Origin: Roseibacillus sp.
GTDB lineage: Bacteria > Verrucomicrobiota > Verrucomicrobiia > Verrucomicrobiales > Akkermansiaceae
Reading direction: 5' to 3'
Assembly: GCA_014240355.1 (NCBI GenBank)
Contig: JAAZXD010000003.1
Location: 1-33,530 of the forward strand
Length of the DNA: 33,530 bases
The translations under genes were made by a program, and so were the position numbers. Below the pieces are notes generated by a model. That model made no database searches. It was not told the DNA's origin and saw only the letters and a list, made by a program, of their open reading frames with translations. Positions 5,401-15,193 of this stretch are shown piece after piece. The number at the start of each line of letters is the position of its first letter. Position 1 is the first letter of the stretch.

Positions 5401-6171
5401 GGCGATCTCACCTTTATCGACTTCGCGGATCCTTCCGATCCCACTCCCACCTTCGTCACCTTCCGGCCCCGTAACTACTACTGGCACCGCCCCGGGGAGA
5501 TCGAGATCCATGAGCGCTCCTTCGCCTACGTGCCCCAAAATATCTATGGCGTTGAGGTCCTCGACTTCGGAGGGGCCTTCGATCCGAATCCCGACCCGGG
5601 CCCACAACCCACAGAGCGTCCCGGCGACGAGTGGGACAAGGTTTCGCTCGAGTGGCTCCCCCTCACCTACGCAGACAATTCGCTCATGCTGGCAGCCCTC
5701 CCGCCCACCGCGAACTGGTCCATCTGCATCCCCGGAGAAGGCTTCTGCATGTCCTACGAGGACTGGGCCCGCCAAGCCTTCCAGCTAGACGAAGGCGACC
5801 CCATCCCGGACTTCTCCGCCGATGACGACCGCGATGGCCGCGACAATGGCTGGGAGTACTTCACCGGAACCGATCCACAAGAGGCGCGCCACTACGCCGA
5901 CTTCGAGATTCAGCTCGTCACCGACAGGGACGGTGAGCAGTACCTGAGCGGACACGTCCTCGTGAATCCCTCTGCTCCAGTTCTCTCCAACATGATCCCG
6001 GAGCTCTCCCACGACCTCATCGAGTGGCAGAGCGACACCCGGCTCTTTGAGGTGGCCGCCCATCCCTTCGAGCTCCGGCCCGGATTGGGATGGAGAACGG
6101 CCAGCCCGGTCCGAGATCACAAGGAAGCCTTCCTGCGGGTCAAGGTGAGTCCTGCCCTGCCCGGAAACTAG
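2473..6171 (+). CDS. Large secreted beta-propeller domain protein with Ca-type spacer and C-terminal verrucomicrobial domain
   Basis: A 1232-aa exported protein with a signal peptide (about residues 1-25, ending PPLRAED). The main part carries many strands of the type LQAIDVSDPAAPRRLATY, VHVVDISNPNQLP, FVIDLSRPLSPRMVSELEIPG, SLDISDRDNPKLLAEL, SVDISDKTNPRILASV and TFIDFADPSDPTPTF, that is 'ID(I/V)SdPxxP' repeats. These are the mark of the secreted C-terminal beta-propeller domain (Beta_propel, PF09826) and LVIvD-type repeats. Near 1100 is PDFSADDDRDGRDNGWEYFTG, a thrombospondin-type-3-like Asp-rich spacer, then a C-terminal beta domain with ELSHDLIEWQSD, a style frequent in verrucomicrobial exported proteins. 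It stands alone between gaps. The cellular role is unknown; cell-surface binding or assembly is a guess. There are no catalytic residues I can name. Confidence 0.7.
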   Translation: MTSPSLLALVALVLAATFLAPPLRAEDDTFQPIEAQMTNRAVVMKLTGGVRRVRLRVRTEEGAWKTVTIAHLEGSEGFLKLRLPDDVAEEDCEISISKYDPFPYRVYQGATKFDPTDSDGNQAALAGGERFAAVDAASPEGEEVVEESDIWKWRDETLYFFNQYKGLQAIDVSDPAAPRRLATYPVDGYGEQMYIHPQANLVMLLNYDRNTGDGRVDLVAHDSPTELTLRDTFRVPGAILESRLIGNILYVISRDSWRVETTDQDGVVHVLNRSGLAITKIDLNDPENPIVDYPLSLGSELYSYWGAQVQATSEALLISTNAYDQVRGQSISTVHVVDISNPNQLPQVSHRFQVAGEVRNKFNMRLRDDVLTVVSQIWRNINGTRRISASVETFDLATGRRGGSLTFANNETITAARFSGDLLYVVTFLRIDPLFVIDLSRPLSPRMVSELEIPGFSTYLQPYGEDALLSIGVEDSKIAVSWFDVSDPSNTSLASRVYIGAEDGWAWTEANWDEKAFGYYPADDLLLVPYQGSDPEKGRQSGVQLVELGDRELTKRGSFEHQFQARRAKVLNDAVVSISGRALRSLDISDRDNPKLLAELMLAWPVDSVYRKDNRLYQLERGDNSWQWWGSSADSSYLHLSPADDAEELITTLELPGGELSGSFLHDNCLFVAQTRSLIVEGEPTRVIFTTSVIDLGDPDRPIIVGSHDHTSEIEDHFGWGFGADYTGTLLPDGTLLWHPSELSSAWGFPLRDLDWGPGLWAPPTPGRAYSVDISDKTNPRILASVGLETGEETWSEGAVIVVGSTLYYGTQKSEPIAERDETSRWIARHWLGHVDFSDPANPVEGDPAELPGTFEHGVLTPSGGHLLFSTHRESYRDQDDSWHQDLKIQTLAFDGVNAFFIAEVTAPDWAWGAKAFEGATMTLGNDSYAEDLRTAQIDIHRWNFDGTFLDIQKWEFPDLRVYDLHIEDDLLIIAGGDLTFIDFADPSDPTPTFVTFRPRNYYWHRPGEIEIHERSFAYVPQNIYGVEVLDFGGAFDPNPDPGPQPTERPGDEWDKVSLEWLPLTYADNSLMLAALPPTANWSICIPGEGFCMSYEDWARQAFQLDEGDPIPDFSADDDRDGRDNGWEYFTGTDPQEARHYADFEIQLVTDRDGEQYLSGHVLVNPSAPVLSNMIPELSHDLIEWQSDTRLFEVAAHPFELRPGLGWRTASPVRDHKEAFLRVKVSPALPGN

Positions 6172-13262: not shown

Positions 13263-14382
13263 ATGCCAGAACCTTCATTCAGCGACGACCTCCAGGCGCT
13301 CGACACCACGGCCCTCAAGGGCCGCTTGTCGGAACTCCGGAGGTATCTTTGACGTCCCTGAACTGGAGAAGAACATCGCTACCATCGAAAAGAAGATGGA
13401 GTCCCCGGACTTCTGGAACGACCAGAACGCCGCCCAGTCGACGGTCAGGGAGGCCAGCCGGCTCAAGGGCAAACTCCACCCCTTCCTCAGGCTCGAGGAA
13501 CGCCTCCAGAACGTGGAGGCCGGGATCGAACTGGCGCGCGAATTCAATGACGCCGACTCGGCCCAGGAGGCCTCCGACGAATTCAAGACCCTCACCCGCG
13601 ACATCGATTCCTTTGAGCTGGTAACCCTCCTCGACAAGCCGACCGATCTCAACAATGCCTACCTGTCCATCCAGGCGGGGGCCGGCGGCACGGAGGCTTT
13701 CGACTGGGCCCAGATGCTTCAGCGCATGTACATGCGCTGGGCGGAGAGCAGGGGATTCAAGGTGTCCGTCACGGACGAGCAGGAGGGGGAAGGTGCGGGC
13801 ATCTCCAGCGCCTCCCTCAAGATTGAGGGAGAGTATGCCTACGGCTACCTGAAGAACGAACGCGGGGTGCATCGCCTGGTGCGCATTTCTCCCTTCGATG
13901 CAGCCGGCAAGCGTCACACTTCATTCGTCGCAATCGACTGCACACCGGAGATCTCCAAGGACATCAATATCGAGATTCCCGAGGGCGACGTCGAAGTGCA
14001 AACCACCCGCTCCGGCGGAAAAGGCGGCCAGAATGTCAACAAGGTGGAAACGGCGGTCATCCTGAAACACAGTCCCTCCGGCATCCTCATCCGTTGCACG
14101 CAGGAGCGCTCCCAGCTGCGCAACCGCGAACTGGCCTGGGAACTTCTCAAGGCCAAGCTCTACCAGATTGAGGAGGACAAGCAGAAGGCAGAGGCGGACC
14201 GAACCTACGGCGAGAAGGGCGAAATCGGATTCGGCAGCCAGATCCGCTCCTACGTCTTCCAGCCCTATCAGATGGTCAAGGATCTCCGTACGGGCCATGA
14301 AACAGGGAACATCCAGGCCGTCATGGACGGGGACCTCGATGGCTTCATCGAGGCCAAGCTGCGCGGTCAGGAGAGATCCTGA
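13263..14382 (+). CDS. prfB: Peptide chain release factor 2, with programmed +1 frameshift
   Basis: RF2 ends translation at UGA and UAA. The gene is in two frames: ATG 13263 to CTT 13347-13349, then TGA (13350-13352); skipping one base (T13350) continues from GAC 13351 to the stop at 14382, giving 372 aa (E. coli RF2 has 365). The first 29 codons encode [20 protein letters not shown] and SELRRYL, and the second part begins [20 protein letters not shown]. The stop-recognition tripeptide SPF is in [15 protein letters not shown], and the catalytic GGQ is in [16 protein letters not shown]. An annotation that starts at another ATG or GTG in the second frame would lose the true N-terminus. Confidence 0.96.
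13339..13352 (+). promoter_or_regulatory. prfB autoregulatory frameshift site
   Basis: GGAGG (13339-13343), TAT, CTT and the in-frame TGA followed by C: the order GGAGG-TAT-CTT-TGA-C is the classic RF2 recoding site. The internal Shine-Dalgarno pairs with 16S rRNA and pushes the ribosome +1 when RF2 is low and UGA is read slowly, so RF2 controls its own level. That mechanism is established for E. coli; here it is inferred from the exact layout. Confidence 0.93.
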
Positions 14383-14437: not shown

Positions 14438-15019
14438 ATGAAACGATTCTGGTGCTTCCTGCTGGCCCTCGTCTGCCCCGCCCTTGCAGACGTGGAATGG
14501 CGCAGCTTTGAAAACGCGGACAAGACCAGGTCCTTCCAGGGGCGTCTGGTCGGCTACGATCCCGCCCGGAAAAAGGTCACCGTGCAGAAGAAATCAACCC
14601 TGCGCCCGGTCACCTTCAGCGTGGCCCTGCTTTCCGAGGAGCACCGCAAGTTCGTGGAAAAGCGCGCCGTAGAACTGGAAGCAGCTGGCGGCCTGCGCAT
14701 GATGTTTTACCAGACGATCGAGAAAACCGGGAGCAACCGCAGCGGTGACACCCGCACCAGCAGTTACAACGGTGGCTATAAGATCGAAATCCGGAACTTC
14801 CTTCGTCGTGCCATCCAGGATGTCTCGGTCGACTATATCGTGATTTACCGCAAGGACTCGACCAAGGGTAATGGGACAAGGAGCGTTAAGAGAGGATCTA
14901 GGGACCTCACCGCCCTGGTGCCCAACTACGACGAGAACATCGTCATCGATGGCATCCCACTCACCAGCTACTACAAAGCTGGCTCGGTCTCGGTAACGGG
15001 GGCGGCGGGATCGACATGA
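14438..15019 (+). CDS. Exported SHD1-domain protein, reading frame interrupted by an in-frame TGA
   Basis: The uninterrupted part is 193 aa: a signal peptide (MKRFWCFLLALVCPALA), then WRSFENADKTRSFQGRLVGY and KKVTVQKKSTLRPVTFSVALLSEE, which is the SLA1 homology domain 1 (SHD1) fold often found in exported PVC proteins. A beta-rich part follows with FYQTIEKTGSNRS, YKIEIRNFLRRAIQDVSVDY and IVIDGIPLTSYYKAGSVSV. The TGA at 15017-15019 stops the frame just as a Gly/Ser-rich linker begins, and the same frame continues with clearly protein-like sequence to TAA at 15193 (separate entry). So this is a truncated or mutated gene, an assembly error, or a rare readthrough case. Its function is not known; such proteins may bind peptides or ligands outside the cell. 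Confidence 0.7.
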   Translation: MKRFWCFLLALVCPALADVEWRSFENADKTRSFQGRLVGYDPARKKVTVQKKSTLRPVTFSVALLSEEHRKFVEKRAVELEAAGGLRMMFYQTIEKTGSNRSGDTRTSSYNGGYKIEIRNFLRRAIQDVSVDYIVIYRKDSTKGNGTRSVKRGSRDLTALVPNYDENIVIDGIPLTSYYKAGSVSVTGAAGST

Positions 15020-15193
15020 TGTCGCGGTGGTGGTGGCGCGGTCAGCGCCACGAGGTCACAGCGAAGCCGCGACTCCCTGGTCGGTTGCATTGCCCAGATT
15101 AAAGTGGGTGGCAAGGTGGTGAAGACCGAGGCGTCGAGCGCTGATGTGCTCCGCCAGTACAGCGGCGCCTTTGGATCATCTGACGCCCGGTAA
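15020..15193 (+). pseudogene. In-frame C-terminal continuation of the SHD1 protein beyond TGA 15017
   Basis: This segment has the same frame as 14438-15019. It begins with a Gly-rich linker (CRGGGGAVSA) followed by SRDSLVGCIAQIKVGGKV and VKTEASSADVLRQYSGAF, ending with TAA at 15191-15193. The part after the linker has a normal beta-strand and helix pattern and no stop, and fits the C-terminal domain expected after a linker in this family. It has no start codon or ribosome site of its own that I can see. Confidence 0.6.

Follow-up and report, generated by a model that had tools for sequence, protein, structure and literature searches.

A gene in the 33,530-nucleotide stretch of Roseibacillus DNA analyzed here (the window) very probably encodes a selenoprotein of 251 residues, itself probably exported, in which the UGA at 15017–15019 would be decoded as selenocysteine (Sec) by means of SelB and a hairpin just downstream. 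The gene is assigned to the selenoproteins because the TGA and the tail that follows it are conserved, a SECIS-like hairpin is present, the genome carries Sec machinery, homologues have Cys at the site, and the TGA form co-occurs with SelA. Translation from the ATG at 14438 gives 193 codons, the TGA at 15017–15019, 57 more codons, and a TAA at 15191–15193. This confirms the frame described in an earlier sequence-only reading of the window, in which the TGA is followed by open sequence up to a TAA; the position 15193 given there is the last base of that codon. The features of the locus, all on the forward (+) strand, are as follows.

14438–15193, +: complete coding sequence of the predicted selenoprotein, 251 residues with Sec at 194 and stop TAA at 15191–15193 (translation; homologues with an in-frame TGA in 67 genomes)
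15017–15019, +: UGA codon, predicted to be read as Sec194 and followed by Cys195 (TGA in 71 of 71 stop-bearing homologous loci; aligned Cys in other relatives)
15033–15051, +: SECIS-like hairpin with a 7-bp stem, GTGGCGC/GCGCCAC, and apical loop GGTCA at 15040–15044 (minimum free energy [MFE], position, rarity, compensatory changes in relatives)
15020–15190, +: 57 C-terminal residues after Sec, with RSRDSLVGCIAQIKVGGKVVKTEASSADVLR (purifying selection; alignments)
14438–14488, +: probable signal peptide MKRFWCFLLALVCPALA (by eye; hydrophobic N termini in homologues)
14495–14692, +: SHD1/SH3-like N-terminal domain, a weak assignment (profile against PDB sequences; Pfam)
13263–14382, +: prfB, encoding RF2, with a programmed +1 frameshift at the CTT-TGA of 13347–13352 (Pfam PCRF and RF-1; frameshift site; RF motif preceding the selenoprotein gene at 14 of the 16 genus loci)

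Distribution of the TGA form

The TGA and a similar tail occur at the same place in all 15 genomes of the genus examined, the window genome included. Across the order Verrucomicrobiales, 71 loci of the TGA form (a first set of 41 and a second set of 30) were found in 67 genomes, and the codon is TGA in each of the 71. An alignment of homologues at codon 15017, proposed as a check by the sequence-only reading, does show TGA in relatives. A protein search gave 13 named loci, all from draft genomes of Roseibacillus, Akkermansiaceae, and Verrucomicrobiales. Within the family, profile matches at an E value of 1e-6 were obtained in 77 of 260 genomes, many of them to the N-terminal part only, and the TGA form was read in 40; in the order, matches at 1e-10 were obtained in 74 of 386 genomes, with the TGA form read in 27 genomes outside the family. 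A search of the phylum gave matches in 25 of 387 genomes, and of 17 loci viewed, three had the frame off the gene and 14 showed neither Sec nor an aligned Cys by eye. The lowest identity to the window protein is 18%, seen in the widest alignment; G011, with the linker GGG-U-GGAPC, has 34%. In the homologue L050, TGA occurs both as the internal codon (Sec) and as the true stop (5739–5741).

The hairpin and the selenocysteine machinery

The hairpin begins 13 nt past the TGA and has a spacing of 20 nt from UGA to loop, a 7-bp stem, and a 5-nt loop, GGUCA; in E. coli fdhF, the loop is GGUCU. Its MFE of −13.4 kcal/mol (15033–15051) was equaled by none of 200 shuffles (z −4.3); for the longer stretch of 39 nt at 15023–15061, the advantage over shuffles was only moderate (z −2.2, equaled by 5 of 200). 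The published criteria for bacterial SECIS elements, as given in a figure legend, are a loop of 3–9 nt, a stem of 4–16 bp, a G in the first two loop positions, a distance of 16–37 nt from the UGA, and an MFE of −7.5 or lower (PMC13188914, Figure 2 legend). The window hairpin lies within every one of these limits (PMC13188914). The two strands of the window contain 970 TGA triplets (426 and 544), and the one at 15017 is the sole one with a GGTC-loop hairpin of at least 7 bp. Such a hairpin follows the TGA in 35 of the 41 first-set loci, compared with 2 of 4,100 dinucleotide shuffles; the first-set hairpins are the best within 80 nt, and hence selected, with shuffles serving as controls. When the loop is relaxed to RGUY and the stem to at least 5 bp, 68 of 71 loci have a hairpin (39 of 41 in the first set and 29 of 30 in the second), and hairpins of this kind turn up in 32 of 6,000 mononucleotide shuffles of the second set. 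The loop lies 17–24 nt after the UGA across the loci with an RGUY loop, except in one, where the distance is 45 nt. No RGUY-loop hairpin was found in L216. At the site itself, Rfam gave two weak matches only, far below cut-off.

The stems change in relatives with compensation around the RGUY loop. Two genus loci, L014 and L021, have one stem mismatch and keep six of seven pairs. The count of pairs was confined to the 14 distinct hairpins with a 4-nt loop, because a MAFFT alignment of 20 hairpins placed the gap in the stem of these members; six distinct hairpins with a 5-nt loop, and L021, which contains an N, were left out of the count. In the 14 hairpins, 92.9% of cells pair and six of the seven pairs vary on both sides, and none of 500 shuffles reached any of five pairing measures. 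In other families of the order (L194, L197–L215, L217, L218, L224–L226), the loop reads AGUU or GGUU at 25 of the 29 loci; three have GGUC, and one has neither. This difference in loop, AGUU or GGUU against GGUC, possibly tracks differences in SelB.

The window genome, a fragmented draft of 675 contigs that is 87% complete, carries SelA (G000:C266), SelB (C246), and SelD (C650), each above its curated cut-off, with SelA partial and covering model positions 54–455. In the genus, SelB, SelA, and SelD each score above cut-off in 14 of 15 genomes, compared with 2, 1, and 2 of 14 control genomes. ARAGORN detected a tRNA-Sec (anticodon TCA) in 7 of the 15 genus genomes, and none was found in the window genome (87% complete, 675 contigs); G010 has a fragment, and so does G014, where it lies at a contig end. 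The selD gene of the window genome (L115, G000:C650) has an in-frame TGA of its own, SSCAG-U-ASKLGQ, and a hairpin, TCGCGCA-GGTCC-TGCGCGG, whose loop lies 32 nt past that TGA. It is a positive control within the same genome, and its loop core, GGUC, is that of the window hairpin.

Taken together with the machinery, the hairpin suggests how decoding could proceed. SelB carrying Sec-tRNA would bind the GGUCA-loop hairpin at 15033–15051 and deliver Sec at the UGA at 15017–15019. Sec194 and Cys195 would then lie in a Gly-rich linker, between the SHD1/SH3-like N-terminal part and the conserved C-terminal stretch, where the pair could act as a selenol/thiol redox center. On this proposal, the selenoprotein family would span the order, with either of two neighboring reactive positions being Sec or Cys in many members.

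Sec/Cys exchange and other readings of the TGA

Cys occupies the place of Sec in five relatives that lack a SelA match (the g8 genomes G179, G151, G124, G138, and G182). The motif is C-x4-C in G179, G151, and G124 and C-x2-C in G138, and G182 stops at a contig end after GGCSSG. G203 has Cys-Cys at the site despite the presence of SelA in its genome. The GGTC hairpin is absent from G203 and from those four g8 Cys homologues for which sufficient DNA is available. Neither Sec nor Cys is present in G096, G102, G105, G199, G313, G332, G405, and G385. SelA was found in 63 of the 67 TGA genomes and in 2 of 14 non-TGA genomes (G199 and G203), a difference with a Fisher p of 2e-9 when related genomes are treated as independent; the comparison excludes G223, which is truncated, and genomes matched over the N-terminal part only (such as G160, G139, G189, and G191). 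The four TGA genomes in which SelA was not found (G010, G198, G263, and G417) are 54%–83% complete. A tree built from 34 proteins contains a well-supported Sec/Cys sister pair, L194 with the TGA and L161 with Cys (98/96). Its starred branches force at least three changes of label; the Sec labels are no more clustered than shuffled labels.

The order of the two residues also varies. U-C is found in most of the genus, in g9, in most of g12, in part of g13, and in two f2 loci; C-U in f6 and L155; U-x4-C in G011, part of g13, and L158; C-x4-U in much of f2; and C-x2-U in L214. A tandem TGA TGA in L172 (G211), the first at 949–951, is interpreted as Sec-Sec, in contrast to the Sec-Cys of relatives. 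Two spaced Sec, with 5, 6, 7, or 9 residues between them, are predicted in G263, G269, G365, G352, and G333; the corresponding double forms L194, L197, L198, L201, and L208 have two in-frame TGA 6–10 codons apart and are apparently double-Sec. Both codons are TGA in the five spaced double forms as well as in the tandem L172. The double-Sec G263 (L194) has no SelA match in its incomplete genome. The Sec/Cys pair is not universal, because G010 (L011) has Ser (TCT) at 195, after Sec, where other genus members have Cys, and no Cys lies near the Sec of L219.

These exchanges bear on a rival reading, namely programmed readthrough of the UGA by a near-cognate tRNA (e.g., that for Trp) without Sec, giving a short and a long product. 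An in-frame UGA with a conserved tail and structured RNA behind it is what such readthrough would also present, and the gene for RF2 adjoins. Nevertheless, where relatives have no stop and the motif is present, they carry Cys at the place, the hairpin fits the SECIS model and has its loop core in common with selD of the window genome, and the TGA form, invariant in 71 of 71 loci, tracks selA; readthrough of this kind is therefore very improbable. The sequence-only reading had mentioned readthrough as an option, and it was right as to the kind of event, recoding; plain readthrough is disfavored since hairpin, Sec machinery, and Cys homologues point to Sec.

Its preferred reading, that the TGA arose through an error in sequencing or assembly or through a recent nonsense mutation in the window strain, does not hold. 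The window does come from a fragmented draft of 675 contigs, but the in-frame TGA and tail are kept in 71 loci of 67 genomes, that is, in 14 other genomes of the genus and 52 further genomes of the order, and selection acts on the sequence past the TGA, so that an accident confined to one strain is extremely unlikely. The tail in the genus is under purifying selection: mean dN is 0.077 compared with a mean dS of 1.1 (78 pairs of 13 genus sequences, dS computable in 44, with L021, L023, and L024 left out), and 1,738 of 2,291 differences fall at third positions. The sequence-only reading had named, as an outcome that would count against it, that every relative terminates at the TGA and is followed by dissimilar sequence; the opposite was found, the tail being conserved.

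Equally improbable is a pair of separate genes, a 193-residue protein ending at the UGA and a tail with a start of its own. The 193-residue ORF before the TGA is open by itself, but the Cys homologues L157, L159, L160, and L161 contain both parts in one continuous open frame, and in the alignment conserved residues cross the site in frame. Genome-wide reassignment of UGA was rejected, because prfB is present and UGA also serves as a true stop codon, as in prfB (14380–14382) and the L050 homologue.

The protein, its family, and the neighboring prfB

Assignment of the N-terminal part is weak. A profile compared with PDB sequences had as its best match the SHD1 of SLA1 (2hbp) at an E value of 0.21. 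In Pfam searches with 34 homologues, SHD1 was matched by two at E ≤ 0.1 (best 0.011) and the RimP SH3 domain DUF150_C by five; the window protein gave no match to SHD1 (PF03983). The label "SHD1" given to the gene by the sequence-only reading thus retains a faint profile similarity in the N-terminal part and lacks a Pfam match in the window protein. Compared with SHD1 proteins (PF03983), to which this likeness is slight, the Sec/Cys linker and the C-terminal stretch are extra. The AlphaFold2 model, built from 12 sequences, was unfit for a fold search because its mean pLDDT was 45.6. Judged by eye, the N terminus suggests that the protein is probably exported. As for function, the Sec194/Cys195 pair is somewhat more likely than not to work as a reversible selenol/thiol redox center; the main alternative is that it binds a metal or another soft electrophile.

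The selenoprotein family seems to be uncatalogued. In NCBIfam, none of seven members scored over a cut-off and five had no match at all; two members matched unrelated models weakly, namely RimP, an S-layer model, and TraI (E 4e-5, but a score of 21 bits where the cut-off is 930). Models of known selenoprotein families in NCBIfam (e.g., GOS_B NF041374 and GOS_C NF045500) matched none of the seven, and in Pfam none of the seven was over cut-off. Among the literature matches listed, no title or abstract concerned this selenoprotein family. Table 1 of a 2026 catalogue of 119 selenoprotein families has no entry with this domain (PMC13188914). The comparison is bounded by these sources, with GOS_A (PMC2398784) and the groundwater deep-Sep study cited by PMC13188914 lying outside it. 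We consider it likely that this order-wide selenoprotein family has so far gone uncatalogued and that its proteins are probably exported and have a scaffold not recognized as thioredoxin-like, with U-C, C-U, U-U, C-C, and spaced swaps at two neighboring reactive positions in a Gly-rich linker, double-Sec members in which a diselenide is possible, and a SECIS loop that is GGUC or AGUU/GGUU according to bacterial family, perhaps tracking SelB.

Mechanism and machinery are already known, and it is the selenoprotein family itself that appears to be unlisted. Analogous to formate dehydrogenase, SelD, and other selenoproteins that depend on SelB and a bacterial SECIS, the window gene has an in-frame UGA, a downstream hairpin with G in the first two loop positions, SelA, SelB, and SelD in the genome, and Cys homologues; unlike them, its protein has no sequence relation to the models of those families. 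Adjacent Cys and Sec are also present in mammalian thioredoxin reductase (GCUG). Adjacent selenol and thiol in Gly-rich surroundings are likewise a feature of SaoC, listed with the motif CU (PMC13188914, Table 1). In contrast to SaoC and thioredoxin reductase, the Sec/Cys pair of the window protein is internal and lies in an unrelated protein, and its relatives vary among U-C, C-U, U-U, C-C, U-x4-C, C-x4-U, C-x4-C, C-x2-C, and spaced double Sec. This spectrum of naturally occurring Sec/Cys exchanges at two positions, double-Sec included, could serve as a probe of what Sec adds over Cys. The family extends the use of selenoproteins in Verrucomicrobiota and places selenium on a scaffold not recognized as thioredoxin-like. 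Wherever it occurs, its members are likely to be annotated as truncated proteins.

The sequence-only reading had remarked on the gene for RF2, the UGA release factor that itself uses UGA recoding, in the same window, and this observation is correct: a gap of 55 nt separates the end of prfB from the ATG of the selenoprotein gene, and prfB itself contains a CTT-TGA frameshift site. In the genus, prfB is directly upstream in 14 of 16 loci (L009–L024, L151), with G013 and G011 as exceptions; it was not seen in 25 checked loci of other genera of the family, many of them with little upstream DNA. That the gene for the UGA release factor adjoins a UGA-Sec gene could reflect co-regulation or be due to chance. 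The prfB product begins MPEPS..LRRYL, followed by CTT-TGA-C at 13347–13353 with GGAGG just upstream, and given this programmed frameshift, the listed GTG ORF from 13243 is wrong-framed at its start.
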